A DNA stretch of 64,000 nucleotides from assembly GCF_001659705.1 (NCBI RefSeq), contig NZ_CP015971.1, positions 1,736,001 to 1,800,000 of the forward strand. Direction: 5' to 3'. The stretch comes from Arachidicoccus sp. BS20 (GTDB lineage: Bacteria; Bacteroidota; Bacteroidia; Chitinophagales; Chitinophagaceae). Of the stretch, positions 49,255 through 64,000 are shown one piece after another. A program made the translations under genes and the position numbers. Below the pieces are notes generated by a model that saw only the letters and a list, made by a program, of their open reading frames with translations, made no database searches and was not told where the DNA came from. Each line of letters opens with the position of its first letter. The first letter of the stretch is position 1.

Positions 49255-49348
49255 AAGGCGTGCAAGTTACAAAAAGCGAGAGGGAAATTGAGGGATGATT
49301 TTGAGAAGTAAGATTTATTTTTCTTTAAAAATTTGTTTTGATTTATGA

Positions 49349-49684
<336 letters not shown>

Positions 49685-49782
49685 TAGAAGTATTGTGATG
49701 AATTGTTTTTTGTTGAACTATTAAGCATTTTACCTATGCACGTGAGCCGGCAAAATTTGTGAAACCTTTCCAGGTCCGCTCA

Positions 49783-49798
49783 TGGCAAGTTTTTTGCG
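49783..49798 (+). promoter_or_regulatory. second sigma-54-like element
   Basis: TGGCAAG-tttt-TTGCG, with GG and GC 10 bp apart, about 100 bp after the Lmo0937-type stop and in the same orientation as the first box. Downstream, an ATG at 49823 opens a 29-codon frame ('MKRKIAYINITDGSSTTF...') of unknown reality. The rest of 49685-49927 shows no gene. Confidence 0.35.
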
Positions 49799-49927
49799 AG
49801 CGATACAACTCGATTCCTTCTTATGAAGCGAAAGATTGCATACATAAATATTACAGATGGTTCTTCCACAACATTTAATTTTCTTCATGATTGGAAGTGT
49901 ATGAAATCTTAAAACATTGAATTACTT

Positions 49928-51271
49928 TTATTTCAACATATCCAAGATTCCTTCATTTTGGATAATAAGCATACCCTGACGGTCTTCCGTGATACCTTCG
50001 GTTAATGTGTACGGATAGCGCGGCGTGCTGCCTTCCATCTCCGTCGGCATGTAACCAAATTGAATATTCATGTTGTTTTGTAGGGCTTCCCCTACTTCGA
50101 TGATGTGTGTAGAAATGATGAATAAACAATCCCGGTATTTCGAAAACGCTTTCGTTACTTCCAATGTGCCTTCGTAAGCATCCTTCACATTCGTACCCTT
50201 GAACAGCTCATCAAACATTACCAATAAGCTCTTCTTTTGGGATACCAATTCCGCTGCCTGCTTTACCCGCAATACTTCCGCATAAAAATGACTGTAACCC
50301 AGACTGATGTTGTCAGGCACATTTATCGAACTGAACAAGCCGTCTTTTACCGTAAAACACATCTCGTCCGCTGCTACCGGAAAACCGCAGTGCGCCAGAT
50401 AAAGGTTTATGCCGATGCTTTTCATCAGCGTACTTTTGCCTGCCATGTTCGCTCCCGTGAGAAAAAGAAGGTTGTGTTCCCGGTTGAAGGTTATGTCGTT
50501 TCCAACAGCATTTTTTAATGCAGGATGCCTTAGCCCTTTTACCTTTAGTTCATTGCCTTCCTTTGGTTTGGCTTCGGCATACGTAAAGTTCCTATCTTCG
50601 GCTACGCTCCCTACCGCCATGAAGACATCCAGCTCGTAAATAAACTGCAAAACAACTTCCATGTCTTTCCGCTTTGTGTGCGTCAGCAGCCGGTCAAAAT
50701 AAGCAGTGTCTTTTACGGAGAGGTCTTCTTTTTTTTCTCCTTCTTTTTCTCCTTTTTTCCCGGAAAGCAACCGCAGTTTCGTGATGTCTTTGTCTGTAAG
50801 AATGGTTTGGACTTCCCTTATCTTTTCTTCGTAAGGATTGTCCTGCATATTCATATCTTCTGTGAGAAAACCGTATAGCAGTTGCAGCACCGTTGCCGCT
50901 GCGGTCAGTCCTTTTGCCTGTAAGCCGTACGCTTCGTCATGCACTAATGACGATAACGCCTTTCTCTTTAGCGTGGAGAACATACTGCCGACAGTCGTTT
51001 TACTGCCGCCGCCGTCTAAACGGTTGGAGAACAGCTCTACCTGTTCCCGCTCTAAGGGAAAACGGTAGCCGCTTTGCTGAAAGTACCGGAAAACGGTTGC
51101 CCTCCGGTTGATTTGCTCTTCGTCCGTCAGCGGCGTTTTCAGCAGCTTTTCCAGCAATTGTTCCCCGCCGGGTGTATGTGTCCGGTTGAATAGTGCATAC
51201 ACCGAACCGGACTGGTACCTGCCTAAAAGATTGAGCTCGTCCGTCGTTTGCTTATCGGTTATAAAAGACAT
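49928..51271 (-). CDS. MutS-related domain V ATPase (tandem copy 1)
   Basis: A 447-residue MutS-like protein lacking the mismatch-recognition domain I. It keeps the helical core (lever/clamp region) and domain V with Walker A 'LFLTGANMAGKSTLMKSIG', Walker B 'LLVMFDELFKGTNVKD' and 'CLFIISTHIIEVGEAL'. Residues near 155-180 hold a Lys/Glu/Gly-rich insert ('SGKKGEKEGEKKEDLSVKD') that looks low-complexity. Such short MutS relatives are common in Bacteroidota; their substrate is not established. It lies 53 bp after a related gene on the same strand, so the pair probably arose by tandem duplication. Confidence 0.85.
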   Translation of the reverse strand: MSFITDKQTTDELNLLGRYQSGSVYALFNRTHTPGGEQLLEKLLKTPLTDEEQINRRATVFRYFQQSGYRFPLEREQVELFSNRLDGGGSKTTVGSMFSTLKRKALSSLVHDEAYGLQAKGLTAAATVLQLLYGFLTEDMNMQDNPYEEKIREVQTILTDKDITKLRLLSGKKGEKEGEKKEDLSVKDTAYFDRLLTHTKRKDMEVVLQFIYELDVFMAVGSVAEDRNFTYAEAKPKEGNELKVKGLRHPALKNAVGNDITFNREHNLLFLTGANMAGKSTLMKSIGINLYLAHCGFPVAADEMCFTVKDGLFSSINVPDNISLGYSHFYAEVLRVKQAAELVSQKKSLLVMFDELFKGTNVKDAYEGTLEVTKAFSKYRDCLFIISTHIIEVGEALQNNMNIQFGYMPTEMEGSTPRYPYTLTEGITEDRQGMLIIQNEGILDMLK

Positions 51272-51324
51272 TTTCTAAATGAATAATGAGTAATGAATAA
51301 TTGAAGCGGATAAGGGATAATTGT

Positions 51325-52680
51325 TTACGGTCGATTGTCCATTGTTAATTGCCCGGCGGCATTCTTTTCCAGCATCTCTATGATACCTTCATTGCGGATG
51401 ATGACCATCCCGTGGCGGTCTGCCGTGATGCCTTCTTCCAGCTTGTAGGTATAGACGGGGTTGTGCCCCTCCATCTTCGTGGGAAGGTATTGGTATTGGA
51501 TATGATTCGTTTGTTGTTGTAAGATGTCCCCGGCTTCAATGATATGCGTGGAGATGATGAACAAACTGCCCGTCTTTTTGGCGAACCCTTCGACTACAGC
51601 TACCGTGGCTTCCCCGGCATCTTTCACGTTCGTTCCCCTAAACAGTTCATCGAACAACACGAACAGTCTTTTGCCGGCGTGCAGTTCCTGTGCTACTTTT
51701 TTTACCCTCAGTACTTCTGCGTAAAAATGGCTGGCGCCCATCCCGAGGTTGTCCGGCAGGTTGATGGTGGAGAACATGCCTTCCAGCGGCGTGAACGTCA
51801 TTTCCTTTGCAGCTACCGCGAAACCGCAATGCGCCAGATAAACAGCAATCCCCACGCTTTTCATAAACGTGCTCTTGCCTGCCATGTTCGCCCCTGTGAG
51901 AAAGACGACATTATGCTCTTCGTCTATCGTGATATCGTTGCCTTTGGCATTGGCTACAGCAGGGTGTTTCACGTCTTTCAGCTGAAGGCTTGTTGCATTG
52001 CCCTCTGCATATTTTGCTGCCGCAAAATTCCACCCGTGTTCTTTGGCAGTTTGACCCACGGAAAGGTAAGCATCCACACAATACATATAGTGCAGCAGCC
52101 TTTTGGATTCCTTGTAGTGCCGGAAGCGCAGGATGTTGTCATAAGCAACGAGCTTGTCCTGCGGCAGCTTGCCTTGGGTGTTCTCCGATAACAGCGGAAC
52201 AAAAGCTGCTTCCGACAAGAGGGCTTCTATATTTTTTCTTTCTTCCGAATAATCCTTGTTGTGCAGGGCAGCTTCCCCCTGTATAAAAGCGTTCAGCTGT
52301 TGCAGCAGCCTTGTCAGCGAGCTGATGCCTTTAACAATCGTTTTATAGCCTGTATCTGCCGCTACCAACCCGGACAGCTTCTGCCCCAGGCTTTGCTGCT
52401 GTGCCGTCAGACGCGTGCGCTCGTCACGCTCCGACAAGTACTGCTCCGCCCCATCGAACAGCTCTCTGTTAAACGGAAAAGATGTGCCCGCTGCCCCGAA
52501 GTACCGAATAATGCCCGTGCGGCGGTTGATGCTGTCCGCATTATCCAAAGGATAACGAAGCCATTCTTCCAGCACCGCTCCACCGCCACGCGTGAAAGAA
52601 CGGTCATACATACCAAAAATACCACCGCCCTTTCCAAATATACCTAAATCAACTAACGTCTGATTATCTGTAGAAAACAT
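51325..52680 (-). CDS. MutS-related domain V ATPase (tandem copy 2)
   Basis: A 451-residue paralogue of the gene downstream. The N-terminus ('DNQTLVDLGIFGKGGGIFGMYDRSFTRGGGAVLEEWL') aligns with that of copy 1, and the ATPase motifs are alike: 'VFLTGANMAGKSTFMKSVG', 'LFVLFDELFRGTNVKDAGEA' and 'SLFIISTHIIEAGDIL'. It has no domain I. The upstream neighbour is the truncated GldG-like gene, 31 bp away. Codon use is more GC-rich than in the surrounding genes. Role unknown; heterodimer with copy 1 is possible. Confidence 0.85.
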   Translation of the reverse strand: MFSTDNQTLVDLGIFGKGGGIFGMYDRSFTRGGGAVLEEWLRYPLDNADSINRRTGIIRYFGAAGTSFPFNRELFDGAEQYLSERDERTRLTAQQQSLGQKLSGLVAADTGYKTIVKGISSLTRLLQQLNAFIQGEAALHNKDYSEERKNIEALLSEAAFVPLLSENTQGKLPQDKLVAYDNILRFRHYKESKRLLHYMYCVDAYLSVGQTAKEHGWNFAAAKYAEGNATSLQLKDVKHPAVANAKGNDITIDEEHNVVFLTGANMAGKSTFMKSVGIAVYLAHCGFAVAAKEMTFTPLEGMFSTINLPDNLGMGASHFYAEVLRVKKVAQELHAGKRLFVLFDELFRGTNVKDAGEATVAVVEGFAKKTGSLFIISTHIIEAGDILQQQTNHIQYQYLPTKMEGHNPVYTYKLEEGITADRHGMVIIRNEGIIEMLEKNAAGQLTMDNRP

Positions 52681-52711
52681 CAGTATCCTATTTTTTTAAA
52701 AACAAAGAATT

Positions 52712-53962
52712 TTATTTACGCTTCCGGCGAATCAATAAAATAGAACCGAAGATGAGTAAAATACATGGCAATACCCAAAGGAAAATAATCTTCAATACAG
52801 CTACTCCTTTATCAGAAAGGTTTAAATGATTATCCTTCGATTTTGGCCTGGTTGTATCTATCGGAAACTGACCGTATGTGAACCAGCCGAACAATGCCGT
52901 GCTCAACTGAAAGTTGGCCGTTCGTATGTTATTTCGACTTAATTCTGCATTGCTCATCATATCGGCATCGCCTGTTACGATGATACGCTGCTCTTTCCCG
53001 CGAATATTTCTTGTAAGGGCAATCACTGTTGGAAATCTTTCTTTTACATCTCCTAGCTCAGGATTGTAAGTAACCGCGGCGGAATCAAGCGCAAAACTAC
53101 CTTTCTTCAGCCAGCTTCTGGAACTATCCGTCATCAGCAACGGGCTTACTTTGAATCCGTTCGTATCACTATAAGACAAGGCTGCAACGCCTGACATAGA
53201 AACCCGGATGCTGTCCTCAAAAACACGTTGTAACGACTTTGAAATGCCTGCCGCATTCTGCGTAAGGTATGGCAACACGAGGTTCGGTGCATATTCTGAA
53301 CTCTGTTGTACCAGTTGCCCGTCCAGCAACTGAACACCCAGCGTTTTTAATAATGGATTTAAGATATCTTGTTTGCCCGGTTCTCCCATAATCATCAGAT
53401 TGCCCCCACTATTGATATATGATTGTAACTCATTAAATGCAGTTGGGGTAAAAGCGGTCTTTGGGTCGGCAATCACAAGCGCAGTGATGCCGGAAGAAAG
53501 ATTTGTATTACTATTTAATGATACCGTATCTATATCAAATCCCTGATTAATGAATGCATAACGGAACGGTTTTTCGCTGGTCAGCACTTCATAATCCCTG
53601 TCGCCTATTTTTTGCGGGCTTCGTTCAAGGTCTCCCGTAAGAAAATCAATCTTAGGCAATTGAACGGTTAGACGCTTTAAAGCTGCCGACACTTCCGTTT
53701 CAGAAGGATAAACAATAAAATCATTGAACAAACGAAGAAAAGTAGTCCGTCCTTTGTATTTCAATTGCATTACATACCTGTTGCCTTCCGGGCGGAGGTT
53801 AATTTCTTTATGAATTTCCGCCGGTGTCTTAAATTCTTTTATATCCATCTTAAACACTTTGGCGTAGCGTTCCGCTATTTCCTTAATAGACTTACCGGGA
53901 TTGTACTTATAGAAATTCTTATCAAAAGTACTGTCGTAATAATAAATATACTCGTGGTGCAT
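52712..53962 (-). pseudogene. GldG-family ABC transporter auxiliary protein, 5'-truncated by an IS
   Basis: A 416-residue C-terminal fragment of a Gldg-family (ABC-2 permease/auxiliary) protein. The body shows 'YYYDSTFDKNFYKYNPGKS', 'LPKIDFLTGDLERSPQKIGDRDY', 'VIADPKTAFTPTAFNELQSYINSGGNLMIMGEPG' and one C-terminal TM helix ('IIFLWVLPCILLIFGSILLI') plus a basic tail. Complete family members have an N-terminal membrane region, often a fused permease. Here the first codons (M-H-H-E) come from the IS terminal repeat, and the sequence beyond the IS does not continue the gene. The ATG overlaps the transposase stop (TAATG), so coupled translation of the fragment is possible. The partner ABC genes are absent from the window. 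Confidence 0.8.
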
Positions 53963-54925
53963 TATAAAGCGAGTTTTATTTTAATGTTGTTGATATTTCT
54001 ATTGAAGATGAATTTGTTTAAATATTGAATAGTGGTGAGAGCTGTTATTTTAGCGAGGATTCTTGTTTTAAAACCTTCAAAAGATTTTGCATAATTACGT
54101 CTAATCATAAACTGGTCGCATAGCTGTGAAAATAAGGTTTCGATTCTTTTGCGGCATTTTCTGAAAAGGTAAAATTGTGGTTTATACTCTTTCTGGTTTA
54201 TTCTTTTAGGCACTTCCAATTCAATATTTACTTCGTTAAACAAATCCAATTGTATGCTTTGAGAGAGATAACCTTTGTCGGCAAGCAAAGTGCAATCGGA
54301 CATTTGCGATTTAATATCTTGCAGATAATGAATGTCGTGAACGGATGCGGGCGTTATATCAAAACTTTGGAAAACACCGTTCACAGAACACACGGCGTGC
54401 AATTTATAGCCGTAAAAAGGTACGTTCTGCGAAGCACAGAAACCTCTGTCGGGAAAGGCACAGCTATTTTCTTTACAGATTTTACTTCTGGAAGAACGAG
54501 ACATTTTGCAGACTTCCAATGGCATACTGTCCACTACAAAATAGTTTTCAAACTCATTAAATTGCATAGCCATTTTCTTTCTCAACATTTCTATGCAGGG
54601 AAATAGTTTCCGTTTTCTTCTGTTATAAACGCTGCGTTCTATCTTGGATGCAATGCCAAGGTCGTCTATTTCTCTAAAAAGCTGCCGTTCAGAGTCTATG
54701 GATTTAAACTCCGCCCAAATGACTAAACTTATCAACTCTATATCGGACAGTTTTGGTTGTATCGGTTTGTAATACATATTTTCACTTTCTGTGATTTTGC
54801 GTAATTCATATAGAATTAGTTCGTAACTTGCCTTCAGGTTGCTCATAATTGTATCTGACTGGTAATCAATACAATATACGACTATTTAGTCTAATGAGCA
54901 ACTCTTTTTATAATGCACCACGAGT
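53950..54925. mobile_element. IS982-family insertion sequence (about 976 bp)
   Basis: Bounded by inverted repeats: ACTCGTGGTGCATTATAAA at 53950-53968, and the same word inverted at 54907-54925; similarity continues inward as GCGAGTT / AAGAGTT. One transposase gene fills the element, and its stop codon lies inside the left repeat. I could not find a target-site duplication: the flanks read ataaatat on the left and tagattaa on the right. This, plus the missing 5' part of the GldG-like gene, suggests a deletion or rearrangement at the junction and not a simple insertion. Confidence 0.85.
53962..54846 (-). CDS. IS982 family transposase
   Basis: A 294-residue transposase with an N-terminal helical region ('LSDIELISLVIWAEFKSIDSERQLFREI', 'SVYNRRKRKLFPCIEML') and a DDE catalytic domain: 'YFVVDSMPLEVCKMSRSSRS' (first Asp), 'FYGYKLHAVCSVNG', 'CTLLADKGYLSQS' (second Asp), and 'LFRKCRKRIETLFSQLCDQF' (Glu). 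The motifs and length match IS982 enzymes and the frame is intact, so it may be active. Its stop overlaps the ATG of the truncated GldG-like frame. Confidence 0.93.
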   Translation of the reverse strand: MSNLKASYELILYELRKITESENMYYKPIQPKLSDIELISLVIWAEFKSIDSERQLFREIDDLGIASKIERSVYNRRKRKLFPCIEMLRKKMAMQFNEFENYFVVDSMPLEVCKMSRSSRSKICKENSCAFPDRGFCASQNVPFYGYKLHAVCSVNGVFQSFDITPASVHDIHYLQDIKSQMSDCTLLADKGYLSQSIQLDLFNEVNIELEVPKRINQKEYKPQFYLFRKCRKRIETLFSQLCDQFMIRRNYAKSFEGFKTRILAKITALTTIQYLNKFIFNRNINNIKIKLAL

Positions 54926-55366
54926 TAGATTAACTCAAAATTACACGAATGGACTTGTCGGTTGAATTCTTATTTCATAAAAGTAAATTGATATTTAAAA
55001 CACTATATTAAAAATTTAGAAGCAACAATGACCGCTGATAGTGTACAGATAAATGGGCTTTCCATGATTTTTTTATATTGGGAAAGGGCTACACATAATG
55101 TCATTATCAGCAACTTTTCCGTCAATAAAATAAAATACAGCTTTCGTAAATTTGAGAATTGTCGTTAACCTTTAATGCAGCTGTACTTATCAACCCGCTG
55201 TAAATCCCACTGAAAGTATCCCCCGGAATATGGGGGTTAAGATCGGCGGGTTTTCCAATTTTAAAGTTTTCACTATACTTCCAAAAAGCAATAATTGATA
55301 AGAAAAAACATTTTATACCTAAAAATTTTGTGTTTAATAATGTCCTCTGCATATAATGGTTGAATA
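54926..55366. other. junction region between the IS and the mobilisation module
   Basis: About 440 bp, AT-rich. It does not encode the missing N-terminus of the GldG-like protein on either strand. It holds a possible small gene at 55122-55352 and otherwise no recognisable feature. The left end of the mobile element probably lies here or at the IS. Confidence 0.5.
55122..55352 (-). CDS. small hypothetical protein after the coupling-protein gene
   Basis: A 76-residue frame starting 14 bp after the TraG-like stop, on the same strand. The N-terminus is hydrophobic ('FLGIKCFFLSIIAFW'), followed by 'KIGKPADLNPHIPGDTFSGIYSG', which looks non-random. I recognise no family. It may be a real small membrane or secreted protein of the element, or a remnant. 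Confidence 0.35.
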   Translation of the reverse strand: MQRTLLNTKFLGIKCFFLSIIAFWKYSENFKIGKPADLNPHIPGDTFSGIYSGLISTAALKVNDNSQIYESCILFY

Positions 55367-57355
55367 TTATTTGTTTGGTGGTTTGTTATTCATCAACAGA
55401 TAGGACAACTTCGGATTACTCCTAATTTTTTCCATTTCTTCATCGATAAGACGAATTATATCGTTCTTAATCTGGATAAAGTTATTCTGAATAACGATAT
55501 TTTCCACCTTGCGTTTAGGAATGCTTTTATAGGCAACTTCTTCCACATTAATTGCATCGGGGTTATTCTGAATCGTACAATGAAATGCTTTCTGGCTCAA
55601 TTGCTGGTTAGGATTATCTGCCAACACACCCACAAACTCGCCGGAGCTTAATTTAGCAATTTTCGCAGGCGGTACCGCTAAATCCAATTGTGTGGACTTA
55701 CTAAGTGACGTATCATTCGCATTAATAGAAATACTCTCTCTCGTCTGTACAATTTTACCAATCGTTTCAGAAACTTCTTTAGCCGTTTCGCCCGTTGCCT
55801 GCCCGCAGAAGATATTTCCTGCCAGTGCAAACAACACATCCGCCTGTTCTTTTCCATAGTTTTTCCGCAACTGTTGCAAATTCTGGATTGCCAGATATGT
55901 ATTGATTTTATAACCCCGAGCAATTGCTAAAAAGTTCTCGATACCATTGGCAAAAATCGAAGAAAATTCATCAGCGATGATAACGGATTTCATTTTGCCC
56001 TTTTTCGGTAAAATCCTGAACAAGCGTGTAAGATATAAAGATACAACCGCCCCATAGATTTGTGTCTTTTCTGGATTATTTGCCAATACAACAATCTTCG
56101 GGTCATCCGGATTATTAATGTCCAAAGAAAAATCATTGCCGCTTAAAACATAATACAAGAGCGGCGATGACAAGCGTGCCAAAGCAATTTTTGCCGAAGC
56201 TGTTTGCCCTTCTAATTGCTCCATTGCTTTATTTTGAAAAGCCGTTATAAAAGGATTGACGAGGACTTCAATTTCGGGTTCGCTTGCCAACACGGGAAAA
56301 AGTTCCGTATAATTCATCTGCATCATTTCGATGGCGTGAGGCAATGTGCAATAAATGCCGTCTTTGTATTTTTTCAGATACCAGATTATCGCTGTCGTAA
56401 AGTTGATAGGGCTTTCCACAAAGAAGTCGCCCTGCTTTTTTATCCAATCCATATTTAAGCCCAATAAAATCGTTCTTGCACTTTCCGAAGCATCGGTAAT
56501 ATCATTCATCAGTGCCGGTTCCAGGGGGTTACAACGATGAACCGGCTCGTCAAAATTGATGATAAAAAAGCCCGGTGTTTTAGTATAAAGGTGCTTGGAC
56601 TTCAGCCAGGAGTTATAAGCAATCTTCGCCAGGTCATCATATTTAAAATCATAAATTAACGCGCTGAATTGCTTTTTCTCAATAGTTTGCTTGATGATTT
56701 CACGGACGAGAAAGAATGTTTTTCCCGCGCCCGGACTTCCGATAATAATACACAACCTTGCAGCGTTGATGATATTTAACCACATATCATGCACCTTACC
56801 TTTCAGGTTATATTTTGCCGGAAGGTTTACGCTAAACTCGTTTTCCAATAACCTTTCTTCCTGCGGAAAAGTTTCATTTTCCAAGTTGAAAATATCCTTG
56901 GCAAGCTTCACTTTTAATATGCGGGAAAGGTAAGCACCGCCTGTAAGGGTTAGCAGATAGCCGATGCTTGTCATGCCCATATAAAACAAAGCTAAACGCA
57001 CAACATCGCCTTGAGCATATAATAAAATATCTGCAACAAAGAATAGAATCATGCCCGGAATTAAATATGCCAATGCTGTTTTTATAGAAATCTTTTCGTC
57101 TTTCCTGCCTTTGACGCCTGCTAAAAAAACAGCAAGCAAACCAAGAACAGACACCTTTACTTTCCATACTTTTTGGAATGCCGGAAGCTTGTTGAAGTTC
57201 AGCATCAGCTTATCCACGATGCCTGCCGTTAAATGCCAATACTCAAAAGCAACATGGCAATAAACATAAAAATGTATCAGCAGAACAGCAATGCTGACAA
57301 GCCTTGTTAAGTCCATAATGGAGCGAAGCCCTTGTTCATTTTCTCCTGTACTCAT
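55367..57355 (-). CDS. TraG/VirD4-type coupling protein (MobC-like conjugative ATPase)
   Basis: A 662-residue inner-membrane ATPase that would bring the relaxosome to a conjugation pore. Four or more TM helices are seen in the first 150 residues ('LVSIAVLLIHFYVYCHVAF', 'VSVLGLLAVFLAGV', 'AYLIPGMILFFVADILLY', 'LALFYMGMTSIGYLLTLTGG'). Then Walker A 'CIIIGSPGAGKTFFLVREII', Walker B-like 'SVIIADEFSSIFANGIENF' and 'INTYLAIQNLQQLRKNYGKEQAD', followed by 'GNIFCGQATGETAKEVSETIG', all typical of VirD4-class proteins in Bacteroidota mobilisable elements. Last of the mob genes, 21 bp after the relaxase. Confidence 0.9.
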   Translation of the reverse strand: MSTGENEQGLRSIMDLTRLVSIAVLLIHFYVYCHVAFEYWHLTAGIVDKLMLNFNKLPAFQKVWKVKVSVLGLLAVFLAGVKGRKDEKISIKTALAYLIPGMILFFVADILLYAQGDVVRLALFYMGMTSIGYLLTLTGGAYLSRILKVKLAKDIFNLENETFPQEERLLENEFSVNLPAKYNLKGKVHDMWLNIINAARLCIIIGSPGAGKTFFLVREIIKQTIEKKQFSALIYDFKYDDLAKIAYNSWLKSKHLYTKTPGFFIINFDEPVHRCNPLEPALMNDITDASESARTILLGLNMDWIKKQGDFFVESPINFTTAIIWYLKKYKDGIYCTLPHAIEMMQMNYTELFPVLASEPEIEVLVNPFITAFQNKAMEQLEGQTASAKIALARLSSPLLYYVLSGNDFSLDINNPDDPKIVVLANNPEKTQIYGAVVSLYLTRLFRILPKKGKMKSVIIADEFSSIFANGIENFLAIARGYKINTYLAIQNLQQLRKNYGKEQADVLFALAGNIFCGQATGETAKEVSETIGKIVQTRESISINANDTSLSKSTQLDLAVPPAKIAKLSSGEFVGVLADNPNQQLSQKAFHCTIQNNPDAINVEEVAYKSIPKRKVENIVIQNNFIQIKNDIIRLIDEEMEKIRSNPKLSYLLMNNKPPNK

Positions 57356-57376
57356 ATTGATTGGTTTTAAAAGGGA

Positions 57377-58858
57377 TTACCAATTGGGTTTACGTTTTTT
57401 CTTTTTCTTAGGGTCTGTGTTCATGGAAAACGACGGTATATTGGGTGTGTCCGTCAACACTTCTTTGAGAAAATTGGTAAAGTGCTGAACAAAAGAAACA
57501 AGGGGAACGGAATTTTCTGTATGCCTTTCAACTTCTTCGTTCAACTTCTCTACGACGGAAGCGGAGATATTTTTGTTTCTGAACCATGCATCAAATTTTC
57601 TGTCAGCCGGTACAAAATTGTGTTCTTCTGTTTGTTGTTTCCCAAAAGCATAATGCAGGTTCTCTTCTTCATCTGAAACCACATGAATCCTTAATCCCTG
57701 TGCATAAAGCGATGCAATCGCGTGGGAGATACCTCTGGTATAATCGGTTTCCGATAAAACCTTTTCGACAAATTCTTTGTTTTCTTTGCGTTCTTTTTGT
57801 TCTGCCAATCCCCCCATGCCGATGCGTTCCATCAATCGTTTGGCACTATATGCTTTGCCCAAATCACTGCCGTTGAAAACGGTTTTAGTGTTATGGTCAA
57901 TGAAAGTGATGCCGTAAACCATTGTTTCGTTTTGATGAAACACCACGTCAATATTTCTCTTTTCCAACTCACTTTTGAACGCTTCTTTTGTAGGAATAAA
58001 TTTGGATTGCAATACTTTGTCAATTGTATTCTTCAACGGTTCTTTGAAACGCAACCGCTCGTTTTTATTGGTATCAAACAGTTTTTCAAGATTAGAAAAT
58101 GTCGGCTTTGTATAGATAGAACTCGCTTTAATCGGCACGCCAATTTTCTTCCTCGCAGCATCCAAAACAAAATAGCTCAACCCTTTTTTGTCGAACATTT
58201 TCGAACCTTCTTCACCGCGATAAGCTGTCACGTTGTACCGCTCCAAAAGTGTATTGAACTCCTGCAACGACGTGAACTTGTAATCACGGACAATTGCCCG
58301 AACAACATTGGATACCGCCGCTTTGGTTTCCGATTTTCCGTAAATTACTTTTTCTACAATAGGTTTCAAGGCTTCGTTTTGCGATTTTTTCCTGCCGTCG
58401 GCAACAACAAGCCCGAATAATTTCTCGATTTCTTTTCTGGCTGTTTCTGACTTTTCTATTCCGAGATGGTGCAGGGAAATACGCTCGCCGCCGTCTTTAA
58501 TATTTGTCGTAACGATGTGCAGATGCGGATGCGCAGCATCAAAATGTTGGTACAACAGATAAGGCTGTCCTGCGAAACCGATTCCTCCTATATAAGCATC
58601 TGTAATGGCAAGCAGCGTTTCTTTGCTCAATTTTTCCGAAGCATCAAAGTTTAAAGAGATATGCACTGTATTGACTATGGTGCGCGTATTTTGTTCTGTA
58701 AGCCGTTGAAAACGCGACAGCTTTTCGGAAAATAGCATCTCATCTGCCGCAGGAAAACCCACCGCATCCAACAGTGCTGCTTTTCCTTCTGATACTTTCT
58801 TTTCGTTGTAATTCAACGCGCCTTTAATGCTTTTGCCTGTCATTATTTTTGCAACCAT
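57377..58858 (-). CDS. relaxase/mobilisation nuclease (MobB-like)
   Basis: A 493-residue relaxase of the Bacteroidota MobB type. 'MVAKIMTGKSIKGALNYNEKKV' is the family's start, and the HUH metal site appears as 'YQHFDAAHPHLHIVTTNIKDGG' near residue 110. A conserved 'KKGLSYFVLDA' region follows. It would nick oriT and stay bound to the 5' end of the transferred strand. The start overlaps the stop of the MobA-like gene by 16 bp, and the coupling-protein gene follows within 21 bp, so they form one operon. Confidence 0.92.
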   Translation of the reverse strand: MVAKIMTGKSIKGALNYNEKKVSEGKAALLDAVGFPAADEMLFSEKLSRFQRLTEQNTRTIVNTVHISLNFDASEKLSKETLLAITDAYIGGIGFAGQPYLLYQHFDAAHPHLHIVTTNIKDGGERISLHHLGIEKSETARKEIEKLFGLVVADGRKKSQNEALKPIVEKVIYGKSETKAAVSNVVRAIVRDYKFTSLQEFNTLLERYNVTAYRGEEGSKMFDKKGLSYFVLDAARKKIGVPIKASSIYTKPTFSNLEKLFDTNKNERLRFKEPLKNTIDKVLQSKFIPTKEAFKSELEKRNIDVVFHQNETMVYGITFIDHNTKTVFNGSDLGKAYSAKRLMERIGMGGLAEQKERKENKEFVEKVLSETDYTRGISHAIASLYAQGLRIHVVSDEEENLHYAFGKQQTEEHNFVPADRKFDAWFRNKNISASVVEKLNEEVERHTENSVPLVSFVQHFTNFLKEVLTDTPNIPSFSMNTDPKKKKKRKPNW

Positions 58859-59232
58859 TTTTTACCAAGTTCTGTAATGAGGGGATATAATTCATCGACT
58901 TTTTTGCCGACACTTTCAAATAAAGAAGCTGTCTGCATGGAGTGATATACTTTTTTTGTCGGGCTGCCCTCACTGTTGAAGTATCGTGTAATCTGGTTAA
59001 TGTTCACGCCGATAGCGTGCAATTCAGAACGGATGGCTGATAACCGCTCCATTACCTTGTCCAAACTTTTATCATGTGTAACGACTACAATCTTCTTATA
59101 GTAAACAATATCGCGCAGCAGTTCGCTCATGCTTCTGTACTGCGAATTTTTCAGCTTGCTTTGCAGCTCCAGAAACTTTTGCTCGTCTATTCTTGTTTCT
59201 ATTCTGTAAGGAAGTTTATCGTGAGGTTTCAT
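58843..59232 (-). CDS. MobA-like relaxosome accessory protein (ribbon-helix-helix type)
   Basis: A 129-residue protein that resembles small mobilisation proteins which help the relaxase melt oriT. The N-terminal half ('PYRIETRIDEQKFLELQSKL', 'SMSELLRDIVYYKKIVVVTHD') looks like a ribbon-helix-helix DNA-binding domain, and 'LSAIRSELHAIGVNINQITRYFNS' matches the conserved 'L..iG.NlNQi.r..N' motif of the MobC/MobA group. Its ATG lies just left of the hairpin-rich candidate oriT. The overlap with the relaxase gene supports joint translation. Confidence 0.88.
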   Translation of the reverse strand: MKPHDKLPYRIETRIDEQKFLELQSKLKNSQYRSMSELLRDIVYYKKIVVVTHDKSLDKVMERLSAIRSELHAIGVNINQITRYFNSEGSPTKKVYHSMQTASLFESVGKKVDELYPLITELGKKWLQK

Positions 59233-59284
59233 AAAATTGTATTTAAGGTTTATTCAAAAAACGATTTCAAAAATTCAAAATGCG

Positions 59285-59432
59285 AATGCCGAGTTGCGAG
59301 GCATTTGTAAACCATCGCTTCTGACTTTGGAAGAAGCGCAAGATTCGTTTGTAGACAAACGTTCATCTTGCTCGTTGCCCGCGCAAGGTCAATGCTCCCG
59401 AATAGCCGTCTTTTAAGACCTTTAATAATGTT
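59285..59432. promoter_or_regulatory. candidate oriT: cluster of hairpins upstream of mobA
   Basis: Five inverted repeats occur in about 170 bp: AATGCC / GGCATT (59285-59305), CGCTTCT / AGAAGCG (59316-59338), a cruciform CAAGAT...CGTTTGT-ag-ACAAACG...ATCTTG (59339-59370), GTCTT-tt-AAGAC (59408-59419) and GGCT-ata-AGCC (59443-59453, just past the end given). They sit between primase-like and MobA-like genes, where oriT lies in comparable elements. No gene is present from 59233 to 59491. The nic site is not identified. Confidence 0.5.
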
Positions 59433-59491
59433 AGCAGGGTAGGGGCTATAAGCCTGTTGAAGCTGTTGAAAAAAGAAAAAGTCAATTGTTG

Positions 59492-60481
59492 CTATCTGTG
59501 GATTTTCATGTTTTCCGGTATTTGCTCCAAAGGATTATGTAGAGAAACCAATAACGCATTTAAGTCTTTGGCTTCGCTGTATATATGACTATAATCTTTG
59601 TAATTGTTGCCATGTACCAATGCTTCGGCTGTCGCGGACTTGCCGCGTGTATCGTTGTCAAGCAACATCATTTTGTTACCGAACGCATCCAATACATCGA
59701 ATGAACTTCTTAAAAATGAAAGCGAGTTTAATACCAAAAAATTATCTGGAACAGGTGCATCAATCCGGTTGTGAAAATGCAACAACTGAAACGATAAAAA
59801 ACTAAAGAACCCTTCAATAACAGCGATGGATTGTTTACGCTTGGGTTGCTGTCTTGCTTCTTTTGATGACAGGTTTGGAATAAGTGTTGTTGCTTTCGGT
59901 GCGCTGCTGCTCTTGAAATTCTTGGAGCGTAATTCATAGCCGCCTTTATCATTTTTGAACCCCAACGCGGTATAAATCCTTTCATTGCCCGCTACACTCT
60001 TATTCAGAAAATCAACTTCTTTCAGGTATTGATTGGCAAGGTCAAGCGGGATGCAACGCTCTCTTAAATAAGACTTCAGATAGAATTTAAAGACAGGTCG
60101 CTCTGCAACGATTTTGATTTTTTTATCGTCAGGCGCAACTGTATTTTCTGTTGCATTTCTCAAAAAGATGCGTTCGTTTTTTTCAACTTGTTGCCTTGGA
60201 AATACAACAAAATCTTTGAACTTTTGCAGCAATTCTGCATGGCTGCATCCGTGAATTTTGATGCCCAAGTCAATCAAATCCCCGCCGATGTCGAGTGAAT
60301 GGTCATACCAAATCCGGTGCTTGTCATTGACTTTAAACGACGGTGTTTTTTCTTCATGAAAAGGCGAATGAAACCAAATATCATTGCCTCTTTGTGCAGC
60401 CGGATGATGTCCCAGACTTGCCAAATAAGGAATAATACGAATACGGGCTTTTGCTTCTTTAAAGTTGAAATTACTGTTCAT
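59492..60481 (-). CDS. toprim/CHC2-type primase-like protein
   Basis: A 329-residue protein with a primase-like layout. The N-terminus ('KARIRIIPYLASLGHHPAAQRGNDIWFHSPFHEEKTPSF') and 'RIWYDHSLDIGGDLIDLGIKIHG' match the CHC2-type zinc-finger fold, but the zinc-binding Cys residues are missing, as is usual in plasmid and transposon versions. The C-terminal half has a toprim-like core: 'IAVIEGFFSFLSFQ' (Glu) and 'KMMLLDNDTRGKSATAEAL' (D-x-D). It may prime replication of the element or the transferred strand. The gene lies 2 bp after the 155-residue gene. Confidence 0.85.
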   Translation of the reverse strand: MNSNFNFKEAKARIRIIPYLASLGHHPAAQRGNDIWFHSPFHEEKTPSFKVNDKHRIWYDHSLDIGGDLIDLGIKIHGCSHAELLQKFKDFVVFPRQQVEKNERIFLRNATENTVAPDDKKIKIVAERPVFKFYLKSYLRERCIPLDLANQYLKEVDFLNKSVAGNERIYTALGFKNDKGGYELRSKNFKSSSAPKATTLIPNLSSKEARQQPKRKQSIAVIEGFFSFLSFQLLHFHNRIDAPVPDNFLVLNSLSFLRSSFDVLDAFGNKMMLLDNDTRGKSATAEALVHGNNYKDYSHIYSEAKDLNALLVSLHNPLEQIPENMKIHR

Positions 60482-60483
60482 GG

Positions 60484-60951
60484 TTATCTTCTTTTGCGAT
60501 GAATGTTGTGGTTAAATTTGTTTTCTCTGATGTTCTCATCATAGCTACCGAACGTCGGCAAAACCCGTTCAATAGGTTCTTTGATGCTGTAGTGATGTTT
60601 GATTTTTTTGTCCGAAACAGCGAAGAATTTATGTCCTTTTCTGATGAACGTGTCTTCTTCCAGCTTTGCCCAAAGAGCCAATCCAACGGGGTCAAGAAAC
60701 CGAATCGGCGGCAGGCGAAGAATTAAAATATGTTCGGGTAAAGGCTTGCTCTCATCGTAATAACGATACACATTCTTTGTGTGTTTGTCGTAACAAAGCA
60801 GTGATGAATCGTCAAAAATCTCCGTCATGTCATTGAAAAAAATCCGGTTATGCGGCGCATCTTTCTGGCGTAATTCATTGAGCTTTGTATCAATATAAAA
60901 TTCTTCTTCGCCGAATTTTATCATGGGTAATTCCCGTAACTGTTGCGGCAT
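60484..60951 (-). CDS. hypothetical protein of the mobile element
   Basis: A 155-residue protein of no family I recognise. It begins 'MPQQLRELPMIKFGEEEFYIDTKLNELRQ', has 'SKPLPEHILILRLPPIRFLDPVGLALWAKLEED' in the middle and a basic tail ('HNIHRKRR'). No TM segments are evident. It is 2 bp upstream of the primase-like gene, so the two are surely co-transcribed and may act together. The GTTCC repeat array lies just before it. Confidence 0.75.
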   Translation of the reverse strand: MPQQLRELPMIKFGEEEFYIDTKLNELRQKDAPHNRIFFNDMTEIFDDSSLLCYDKHTKNVYRYYDESKPLPEHILILRLPPIRFLDPVGLALWAKLEEDTFIRKGHKFFAVSDKKIKHHYSIKEPIERVLPTFGSYDENIRENKFNHNIHRKRR

Positions 60952-60986
60952 GATTGATTATTTTAAAGGTTGAAAATTTCAAAATC

Positions 60987-61223
60987 GTTCCGGTCGTTCC
61001 GTTTTTGTTCCACCGGAAAATGCTAATTCTTTGATTGTAAAACATTTAAACAGCATTTGCCGTTCCGTTCCGGTTTGAGCGCGCCAGCGTTCCGTTTTTG
61101 TTCCGTTTTTCAATTTTTCGTTCCGTTTTAAAAAATTAATTTTTTGATTTACAACTGATTGATACCTGTTTTCCCGTTCCATATCTGCACATAAAAAATG
61201 GAACGACGAGCATAAAAAGGAAC
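60987..61223. repeat. iteron-like GTTCC repeat array next to the RepA-like gene
   Basis: GTTCC occurs nine times forward (60987, 60996, 61007, 61062, 61067, 61089, 61100, 61120, 61176) and twice inverted (61200, 61219). A 17-bp unit CGTTCCGTTTTTGTTCC is repeated exactly at 60995-61011 and 61088-61104. The array lies between the RepA-like and the 155-residue genes. A translatable frame across it (60979-61182, minus) only reflects the repeats ('NGTKTER'). It may be a Rep-binding origin. Confidence 0.6.
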
Positions 61224-61224
61224 A

Positions 61225-62199
61225 TTATGTTTCTTTGTTGTCGCCCGGCGATAACCAGCGATGAATGGTGCCTTTACCTTTGTTCAGAATGCGGGCGATT
61301 TCATCAAAAGACTTGCCCGATTTACGAAGTGCAACAGCAATATCTTTTTGTTCTTCTTTATCCCGTATTTGATGAATGCCCACGTGTTCCGCTTCATTGA
61401 CTTGTTCCTCTTTCAACTCAAACCACATCGTGTAAGGATTCATTTTTAAAAGTTTCGACTGCTCGGCTTCTTCAAAATGGCGGGATTTGCCGCGTTTGAG
61501 AATGCGTAAATTTTTATCCTGACAACTGCGCCGAAGAAAAAAATCGCCGTCGACTAAATCTGTTTTCACGCCGCTTCCCGTTTGCAAATCACTTTCACTT
61601 AACAGGGATGTTGTGTGTTTTCTGAAGTGGTCTGTAACCACAATGGAAGTCTTGGAACTTTGACACAAAGCGAGTAACGTAAACATGAGCCGTGTGATTT
61701 CACGGTTGTTATTGGTGTCCACATTTGTAAATGCCATGCGTAAATTATCAATCACAATCAGCACGGGATTGAGTTTCTGAATGATTTGAATGATGTTGGG
61801 TAAATCATCCAAAAGATTATTCCTTGTGGTATAAGCCATTGCTTTAAAATTGTCTTTAACCGGTAACGGAACATTGCTTAATAATCGGTTTGCCCTGCGC
61901 TTGATAATTCTTTCACTCAATTCGTTGTTGAGATAAAGTGTGTTGCCGTGATGATTAATTACTTCGCCCAAATAGCTGTCCCATTCCCCTGCAATGGCAA
62001 TGCACAGTTGCATACACAACCAACTTTTGCCGACACCACGAGGCGACGGAAAATGTATCAGACAGTCTTCGGGAATGAAATTGCCGAAGAGCAATTTCAT
62101 ATCGGGAATATCTTTGCCTTCTTCTGCCAAACGCTGCATGGATGTGAGTGTAGGGCGTGCATAGAAGCTGACCTGTTCCGTTATTTTTTTAGTCGCCAT
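61225..62199 (-). CDS. RepA-like AAA family ATPase with C-terminal HTH
   Basis: A 324-residue RecA-fold ATPase like the RepA helicases of plasmids and mobilisable elements. Walker A is 'FPSPRGVGKSWLCMQLCIAI', Walker B 'NPVLIVIDNLRMAFTN', and 'TSIVVTDHFRKHT' carries the sensor-like motif. The C-terminus 'DIAVALRKSGKSFDEIARIL' and 'GKGTIHRWL' is a helix-turn-helix, so the protein may bind the nearby repeats itself. It overlaps the upstream 97-residue gene by 11 bp. Predicted role is replication of the element after excision or transfer. Confidence 0.85.
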   Translation of the reverse strand: MATKKITEQVSFYARPTLTSMQRLAEEGKDIPDMKLLFGNFIPEDCLIHFPSPRGVGKSWLCMQLCIAIAGEWDSYLGEVINHHGNTLYLNNELSERIIKRRANRLLSNVPLPVKDNFKAMAYTTRNNLLDDLPNIIQIIQKLNPVLIVIDNLRMAFTNVDTNNNREITRLMFTLLALCQSSKTSIVVTDHFRKHTTSLLSESDLQTGSGVKTDLVDGDFFLRRSCQDKNLRILKRGKSRHFEEAEQSKLLKMNPYTMWFELKEEQVNEAEHVGIHQIRDKEEQKDIAVALRKSGKSFDEIARILNKGKGTIHRWLSPGDNKET

Positions 62200-62482
62200 G
62201 ATAGAACAATGGAATGTTATCGGGAAATTGGATATTCAGTTTAATTGCCAGCGTCAAAGGTTTATTAGGTCTGTTATTCCAAATCCATTGGTTGGCTGCC
62301 GTCATCCAGTTTTTGACCGGGCAACCACGCTGCGTCTTCCATTTTTTCGATTTGTAATGATTATAAAAAGTGATAGCCATTGCTTCGGGCAATCCTTTTT
62401 GAGAAAAATATATTTTGACGAATTTTAAATCAGGCGGTATAGCTGAAGTGCAGACATCATTTTTTCTGTTTTCTTTTTTCAT
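62189..62482 (-). CDS. small replication-associated protein (DnaT-like replisome domain suspected)
   Basis: A 97-residue protein. The core 'AITFYNHYKSKKWKTQRG' and 'CPVKNWMTAANQWIWNN' resembles the short replisome-organiser motif seen at the end of phage DnaT/DnaD-like proteins ('F..yy.skgW..k...KdW..a...W'). It overlaps the RepA-like gene by 11 bp and the HTH gene by 4 bp (ATGA), so all three are coupled. Helicase-loader partner of the RepA-like ATPase is an inference. Confidence 0.7.
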   Translation of the reverse strand: MKKENRKNDVCTSAIPPDLKFVKIYFSQKGLPEAMAITFYNHYKSKKWKTQRGCPVKNWMTAANQWIWNNRPNKPLTLAIKLNIQFPDNIPLFYHGD

Positions 62483-62814
62483 GACTTTAGATTTTGAATA
62501 AGTGTGTTTTTAAATTTGTTCATCATAGAATGGATGTCTTCTACGTTATAAAATATCACATTGCCGATGCGAGTAAAAGGTAATGTACGGTTGTCCCGCA
62601 ATGTTTGCAATGTACCGGGAGAGATGCCCAACAGTTTGCGTACTTCATAGCTTTTAAGCCATTGCTTACTGCTTGAACTTGCCTGCTCTTTATGGATGCT
62701 TTTTAAATCTTGTAACAGCTCGGCTTTAAAATCGACAAGGTCGCCGAGCGTAACCAATTGGTCTCTTCTTATCGGAGTGATTGCCGATAGCGGCTTTTGA
62801 TTTTTGTTGCTCAT
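62479..62814 (-). CDS. helix-turn-helix (excisionase/MerR-like) protein
   Basis: A 111-residue protein with a winged helix of the excisionase type: 'QWLKSYEVRKLLGISPGTLQ' followed by 'TLRDNRTLPFTRIGNVIFYN', then 'VEDIHSMMNKFKN'. In Bacteroidota mobile elements such proteins regulate excision or the downstream replication/mob operon. First gene of the leftward operon; its stop overlaps the next start (ATGA). Two short inverted repeats lie just upstream. Confidence 0.88.
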   Translation of the reverse strand: MSNKNQKPLSAITPIRRDQLVTLGDLVDFKAELLQDLKSIHKEQASSSSKQWLKSYEVRKLLGISPGTLQTLRDNRTLPFTRIGNVIFYNVEDIHSMMNKFKNTLIQNLKS

Positions 62815-62822
62815 GGTTTAAT

Positions 62823-62868
62823 TGTTTTGAACAACAAAAGTGTGTGAAGCAAAACACGGCGTTTCACA
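62823..62868. promoter_or_regulatory. inverted repeats upstream of the HTH gene
   Basis: TTGTT-ttga-AACAA (about 62823-62836) and TGTGAA-n14-TTCACA (62843-62868) lie 9-54 bp before the HTH start. Possible autoregulatory sites; no further support. Confidence 0.3.
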
Positions 62869-63009
62869 AGCAACTATATACTACTGTATTATTTTTTCGA
62901 AAATTGGTTCGTAATGAATCGCATTGACCTAAATTATATTCGGTTAATGAGAATATTATTTCATTGAATGCAATCTGATAAATTCTTTTTCAGGCAATTA
63001 CATCTTACA

Positions 63010-63046
63010 ACTAAATATATTAGTTTTATATACTAAAATAATTAGT
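63010..63046 (+). promoter_or_regulatory. two tandem 15-bp palindromic operators upstream of dinB
   Basis: ACTAAATATATTAGT (63010-63024) and ACTAAAATAATTAGT (63032-63046) are both ACTAA-N5-TTAGT. Their centres are 22 bp apart, about two helical turns, so two dimers would sit on the same DNA face. They end 31 bp before the dinB ATG. The pattern is that of a LexA/Xre-type SOS-like repressor site, but the repressor gene is not in the window. Confidence 0.6.
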
Positions 63047-63077
63047 AACATTGTGCTGCAAAATTCCAATCGTTTTT

Positions 63078-64000
63078 ATGGAACGTCAGATTATTCATTG
63101 CGACCTGGACACTTTTTTTGTTTCGGTAGAAAGGCTCTTGAACAAAGACCTGAACGGCAAACCCGTACTCGTTGGCGGCTTTTCCGACAGAGCCGTTGTC
63201 GCTTCCTGCTCTTACGAGGCAAGAAAGTTCGGCGTGCATTCCGCCATGCCCATGCGCTTGGCAAGACAGCTTTGCCCGCAGGCAATTGTCGTTCGCGGCG
63301 ACCATGACGAGTACAGCAGATTTTCCCGTATGGTAACAGAGATTATCGAAGAAAGAACGCCGGTTGTAGAGAAGGCAAGCATTGACGAACACTATTTGGA
63401 CATTACCGGCATGGATAAATTCTTCGGCTGTTGGAAATGGGCGCAGGAATTACGGCAAAAGATTATAAAAGAAACGCACCTGCCGATTTCATTTGGTTTA
63501 TCCGTCAATAAAACCGTTTCCAAAATTGCCACAGGCGAAGCCAAACCTTGTAACGAAAAACGGGTAGATACGGGAACGGAAAAACCATTCCTTGCGCCTT
63601 TGTCTATCCGTAAAATACCGATGGTTGGCGCAAAGACTTATACGCAGTTGCGGAACATGGGCATTTCTAAAATCCAAACCTTGCAGGAAATGAATGTGGA
63701 CACCATTCATAGAGTATTGGGAGAAAATGGCGTAACCATATGGCGCAAAGCCAATGGCATCGATAATTCATTGGTATTGCCTTATCACGAGCAAAAGAGC
63801 ATGAGTAAAGAAAATACATTTGAACGCGACACCATTGATATGGTTTTGTTGAAACGTGTGATTGCTAAAATGGTGGACGAACTATCTTTTGATTTACGGA
63901 AGGAAAATAAAGTAACAGGCTGCATTACGCTGAAAATTCGCTATTCCAATTTTGAAACTTTTACCAAGCAAATGAAAATAAGCTATACCTGTTCAGAAAA
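63078..64000 (+). CDS. dinB: Y-family DNA polymerase IV (3' truncated by window edge)
   Basis: The first 307 codons of a Y-family polymerase. 'MERQIIHCDLDTFFVSVE' carries the metal-binding Asp (9) and the steric-gate Phe pair. 'VEKASIDEHYLDITGMDKFF' gives the catalytic Asp103-Glu104 at the same position as E. coli DinB, and 'ISFGLSVNKTVSKIATGEAKPC' is the fingers/palm region. The little-finger domain begins at about residue 240. It carries out translesion synthesis. Tandem operators upstream suggest tight repression, probably by a DNA-damage-responsive regulator. It may belong to the mobile element, but the right boundary is not visible. Confidence 0.94.
   Translation, partial: MERQIIHCDLDTFFVSVERLLNKDLNGKPVLVGGFSDRAVVASCSYEARKFGVHSAMPMRLARQLCPQAIVVRGDHDEYSRFSRMVTEIIEERTPVVEKASIDEHYLDITGMDKFFGCWKWAQELRQKIIKETHLPISFGLSVNKTVSKIATGEAKPCNEKRVDTGTEKPFLAPLSIRKIPMVGAKTYTQLRNMGISKIQTLQEMNVDTIHRVLGENGVTIWRKANGIDNSLVLPYHEQKSMSKENTFERDTIDMVLLKRVIAKMVDELSFDLRKENKVTGCITLKIRYSNFETFTKQMKISYTCSE

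Follow-up and report, generated by a model that had tools for sequence, protein, structure and literature searches.

A tandem operator pair before dinB in Arachidicoccus sp. BS20, probably read by a chromosomal non-canonical LexA

Two copies of one palindrome stand just before a Y-family DNA polymerase gene in Arachidicoccus sp. BS20, which raises the question of what regulator, if any, they serve. The window (the whole stretch of DNA analysed, 64,000 nucleotides) had been described in an earlier note as carrying ACTAA-N5-TTAGT twice at this place. Direct reading confirms this, with exact arms, a gap of 5 and centres 22 bp apart (63017 and 63039), and the pair is located 33 bp 5' of dinB (Table 1). 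The 15-mer has no further exact copy in the 64-kb window. The spacing had also been equated with exactly two helical turns; the 22 bp stand, but two turns come to 21 bp, so the distance is slightly more. The functional core of the palindromes is the 13-bp CTAA-N5-TTAG and not the full 15-mer. A candidate -7 box next to the downstream operator was recognised by TAnnTTTG, which we take to be the Bacteroidota -7 consensus. The pair is read here as a tandem SOS operator of a chromosomal non-canonical LexA, with a probability of about 0.9; this figure covers the SOS-operator reading alone, and cooperativity is graded apart from it.

Table 1. Features of the dinB promoter region (window positions) and the putative cognate repressor (genome position).
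Feature	Position	Strand	Basis
Upstream palindrome, ACTAAATATATTAGT	63010..63024		direct reading of the window
Operator 1 (predicted), CTAAATATATTAG, 13-bp core of the upstream palindrome	63011..63023	.	sequence read, motif counts
Downstream palindrome, ACTAAAATAATTAGT	63032..63046		direct reading of the window
Operator 2 (predicted), CTAAAATAATTAG, 13-bp core of the downstream palindrome, its centre 22 bp from that of operator 1	63033..63045	.	sequence read, motif counts
Candidate Bacteroidota -7 box, TAACATTG, abutting operator 2	63046..63053	+	5/6 fixed letters of TAnnTTTG
dinB, Y-family DNA polymerase, 385 aa, ATG at 63079, running past the window end	63079..64000	+	gene call, Pfam
Repressor (HTH + S24, 252 aa)	G000:C1:1382935-1383693	divergent from recA	Pfam, genome search

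The claim that such a pair argues against chance is borne out. The window has a single tandem pair of the 13-bp core (gap 0-30 bp), and none of 100 dinucleotide shuffles has one. Over the 3.49-Mb genome the 15-mer has 8 copies and the core 22, against 198 for a reversed-letter control, so the core is rare here. There are three adjacent core pairs in the genome, spaced 22, 23 and 24 bp, compared with none for the control and about 0.004 expected by our own arithmetic for 22 randomly placed sites at spacings of 13-43 bp. That the palindromes arose by chance in AT-rich intergenic sequence, or form a hairpin or terminator, might be suspected from the shortness and AT-richness of the core and from the single core sites that also fall within unrelated genes. 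However, such an explanation is already refuted by the shuffle and control counts and by the conservation of operator pairs across genera, and its probability is negligible.

The sites are not randomly scattered with respect to damage genes, but are found before SOS genes. A search of the genome places the motif, with AT-rich spacers as at dinB, also between recA and the S24 repressor gene that diverges from it, and before an operon of RNA-ligase-like and splB-like genes. At the dinB locus itself, dinB is followed in the same direction by a dnaE-like DNA polymerase III alpha-type gene (978 aa) and an exonuclease of the DnaQ/GIY-YIG type (463 aa; RNase_T and GIY-YIG domains in Pfam). The recA/repressor region holds three core sites, 88 and 23 bp apart; they lie 31, 54 and 142 bp before the repressor ATG, and the motif is thus present in the repressor's own promoter. 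The site of recA itself has, as read from the sequence, a partner CTAA-N5-TTAT (one mismatch) 23 bp away. A 24-bp pair stands directly before a gene of the 2'-5' RNA-ligase family, which is followed by a radical SAM gene, taken as splB-like from its resemblance. A DUF488 gene and the gene of NA37, a 37-kDa nucleoid-associated protein, each have one upstream site with an AT-rich spacer, abutted by TATATTTG or TATTTTTG; the NA37 operator, at G000:C1:2400239 (L055:2040), abuts TATTTTTG and is 29 bp 5' of the gene. Several other core sites are intragenic and random-looking.

The DUF488 gene was rejected as a core regulon member, a site being present upstream in just 1/7 other DUF488 loci. Control of recQ by the core site at 716174 was likewise discarded, the site being at the 3' end of recQ. 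No exact core site is found in the sequence upstream of the genome's second dinB (at 1963874). An ftsZ-like gene lies 51 bp beyond the core site at G000:C1:3261106 (L048:2007), which itself overlaps the end of an ftsA-like gene; this placement may be due to chance or point to a link with cell division. A stretch of 88 bp on the minus strand (G000:C1:959705-959792, L013:2706-2793) matches the dinB promoter at 75% identity and contains two operators, one exact and the other degenerate, at a distance of 22 bp, but no dinB follows; it is probably left over from a former copy of the cassette.

The repressor is the only S24 protein found in a genome-wide search. It has an N-terminal Cro/CI-type HTH and a C-terminal S24 peptidase (HTH_3, PF01381, 6.1e-12; Peptidase_S24, PF00717, 3.1e-08; both over the Pfam cut-offs). 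The cleavage region VKAAAGY, the Ser of GDSM and the Lys of VYKR are conserved in 30 family members: in a column-by-column alignment check, Ala102-Gly103 and Lys178 are present in 30/30 relatives, and Ser139 of GDSM in at least 95% of the same alignment. An exact core site is found in 29/30 of the repressor promoters in this set of relatives.

The repressor had been suggested to be uncharacterised, which is wrong: CTAA-N5-TTAG and its repressor class were published in 2021, and the main text of that paper reports EMSA with dyad and spacer mutants, as well as mitomycin C induction for Pontibacter actiniarum (Sanchez-Osuna et al. 2021, PMC8565304). The comparative regulon in the same main text includes recA, dinB, splB, a dnaE-type gene and a GIY-YIG exonuclease. 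Shared with the non-canonical LexA described there are the 13-bp core, the HTH_3 + S24 architecture with its Ala-Gly and Ser/Lys residues, autoregulation of the repressor gene (here, the sites in its own promoter), and a regulon with recA, dinB, a DNA polymerase III alpha-type gene, a GIY-YIG exonuclease and splB. Judged by these resemblances to the published main text, the dinB pair and its repressor are almost certainly a further instance of the CTAA-N5-TTAG group of Bacteroidetes non-canonical LexA. The view that the palindromes are SOS-type operators of dinB under an S24/Xre repressor is well supported by regulon context and conservation, with binding as a prediction.

The surroundings of dinB raise a different possibility. 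From 55367 to 64000 of the window, and on to G000:C1:1806212 (L011), the dinB-dnaE-exonuclease operon is flanked on one side by mobilisation genes (for a YWFCY/T4SS coupling protein, a relaxase, a CHC2/Toprim primase, AAA_25 and HTH_17) and on the other by a tyrosine integrase next to tRNA-Arg(tct), and it is apparently cargo of an integrative mobilisable element. A comparison of the integrase/tRNA-Arg side with window positions 48000-57400 gave no direct repeat >10 bp that could represent att sites, and the window has no second copy of the tRNA end. With dinB so placed, the palindromes might serve a local regulator of the element, such as the product of the excisionase-like HTH_17 gene (62479-62814) or of some other gene of the element, instead of the SOS repressor; related cassettes elsewhere do bring their own divergent HTH/S24 regulator and other palindromes. 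However, the recA/repressor region and other repair genes, all remote from the element, have identical sites, and the dinB cassette of the congener G287 keeps the pair with none of these mobilisation genes within the surrounding 19.5 kb, making a local regulator very improbable. Two adjacent proteins (447 and 451 aa) encoded on the minus strand at 49928-52680 of the window resemble MutS-family ATPases.

DinB relatives at 70-73% identity are found in Sphingobacterium, Mucilaginibacter, Taibaiella and Albibacterium. The Sphingobacterium copies have single CTAA-N5-TTAG sites. In those of Mucilaginibacter the palindromes are different and an HTH + S24 gene diverges from the cassette, and a Taibaiella copy has a divergent HTH gene. 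Cassettes with other palindromes (L149, L154, L159, L164, L167 and L103) carry TTGTTA-N7-TAACAA, TTGTCA-N7-TGACAA or GATAC-N5-GTATC. Each except L154 has an HTH gene in divergent orientation, and in L103, L149 and L159 this comes with a detected S24 domain. Two palindromes are about 23 bp apart in L154 and L164; a general 23-bp spacing at cassettes with their own HTH/S24 gene was not retained, the palindrome-pair scan being too noisy in AT-rich DNA to give more than these single cases. In both congeners (G287 and G180) the dinB operon is located elsewhere, without these mobilisation genes and the integrase. The dinB cassette appears to move and to come under the host's own SOS repressor.

Tandem pairs are found in 90/298 genomes of the order. 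Among the 62 pairs listed in the window's family, which are not independent, many being orthologous promoters, 49 are spaced 21-24 bp and 31 exactly 23 bp. Of the repressor promoters picked on protein similarity alone, 29 have an exact site, and in 24 of these it has a partner (up to 2 mismatches) at -22, -23 or -24; every other upstream offset gives 3 at most. In G287, pairs are present at dinB (22 bp), the RNA ligase (24 bp) and the repressor (23 bp), and a 22-bp pair is also found at a second dinB-like gene, from which a gene resembling SOS-associated peptidase diverges. In G180, dinB is intact, and its degenerate sites (one and two mismatches) are still 22 bp apart; a reading of this gene as broken by two TAA stops was abandoned, as the 391-aa frame is open and the stops are terminal.

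CTAA arms are present in 18/59 regions upstream of dinB orthologues, against 0-4 for each other arm of the same letters. Most dinB homologues at about 60% identity are without the motif. Conservation upstream of orthologous dinB, to which the earlier note had looked, therefore holds in part: the pair is kept in G287, but it is degenerate in G180 and not universal, many more distant dinB genes having other palindromes. A pairing at 22-24 bp, usually abutting a -7-like box and, in a congener, with each gene retaining its own spacing, seems undescribed in the main text of PMC8565304, which mentions two or more sites at some promoters, with no fixed spacing and no occurrence of 'cooperat', although its supplement could differ.

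From the characterised relative we infer binding, RecA-dependent cleavage and damage induction here as well. Repressor dimers bound to the two palindromes would span the -33/-7 region of this promoter and block RNA polymerase. On DNA damage, RecA would be loaded on single-stranded DNA, and the RecA filament would make the repressor cut itself at Ala102-Gly103 (Ser139/Lys178 dyad). Expression of dinB would follow, together with that of the dnaE-like polymerase and the GIY-YIG exonuclease, the three forming an inducible operon for mutagenic repair. Such RecA-triggered self-cleavage, freeing recA, dinB and the repressor gene, would be common to canonical LexA (E. coli, CTGT-N8-ACAG). The motif and the DNA-binding domain differ, however, as Pfam gives HTH_3/HTH_19 and no LexA winged-helix domain (PF01726, LexA_DNA_bind) in the repressor.

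The spacing of 22-24 bp would most likely set two dimers side by side on the same DNA face, where they could help each other like lambda CI at OR1-OR2. The centres of these lambda operators are about 22-24 bp apart, and the two operators here, at fixed spacing, fall within the lambda-CI-type range (20-24 bp, centre to centre). Tandem palindromic operators, a CI-like HTH and a self-cleaving S24 domain are common to both systems. Unlike lambda CI, the repressor here would govern a chromosomal DNA-damage regulon and not a lysis-lysogeny switch, with two sites as the rule and cooperativity as a proposal. Cooperativity of adjacent dimers, as suggested by the geometry, has in our estimate an even chance of being correct. 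Alternatively, the same repressor may bind two independent operators, the 22-24 bp reflecting only its placement relative to the -33/-7 boxes or to the -7 box and start site. In 21/26 paired repressor promoters the upstream operator runs straight into a TAnnTT(T)G-like box (0.5% per-position background), so promoter geometry does constrain placement, and single-site promoters exist (dinB in Sphingobacterium, the DUF488 and NA37 genes in this genome). This is a serious rival with a considerable, if less than even, chance of being right. However, several dinB promoters have a weaker -7-like box after the downstream operator instead, and the spacing is the same whether the box follows operator 1 (repressor, splB) or operator 2 (dinB), which fixed promoter geometry alone would not call for. 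As the spacing is kept while the position relative to the promoter changes, cooperativity is the simplest reading.

The RNA-ligase-like gene recurs in the family. A core site is found within 1.2 kb upstream in 28/30 family loci with a relative of the 2'-5' RNA ligase (L210-L239), compared with 0-4 for eleven other arm permutations. The gene, single or duplicated, is usually located between a divergent umuD-like gene and a splB-like gene, both named from sequence resemblance. This 2'-5' RNA-ligase/2H-phosphoesterase gene is likely an overlooked SOS gene and a recurrent member of the regulon. The main text of PMC8565304 has no mention of a 2'-5' RNA ligase, which its supplement could hold, and a full-text literature search found no paper linking an RNA ligase and this SOS motif.

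The published SOS system is here extended to another genome, with two testable points beyond that main text, the geometry of the operator pairs and the RNA-ligase-like gene. The pair geometry suggests that a phage repressor, in turning into a regulator of the cellular SOS response, retained its phage-CI-like cooperativity. Taken together as a family-wide SOS network, in which operators are paired and cooperatively filled at a fixed 22-24 bp like lambda OR, gene by gene across genera, and in which the 2'-5' RNA-ligase/2H-phosphoesterase gene is also controlled, the proposal is a tentative one, rather less than evenly probable. If it is true, paired operators would make the damage response under this CI-derived repressor switch-like, in contrast to LexA boxes elsewhere, which are usually single, and the 2'-5' RNA-ligase/2H-phosphoesterase gene would be a candidate RNA-processing arm of the damage response.
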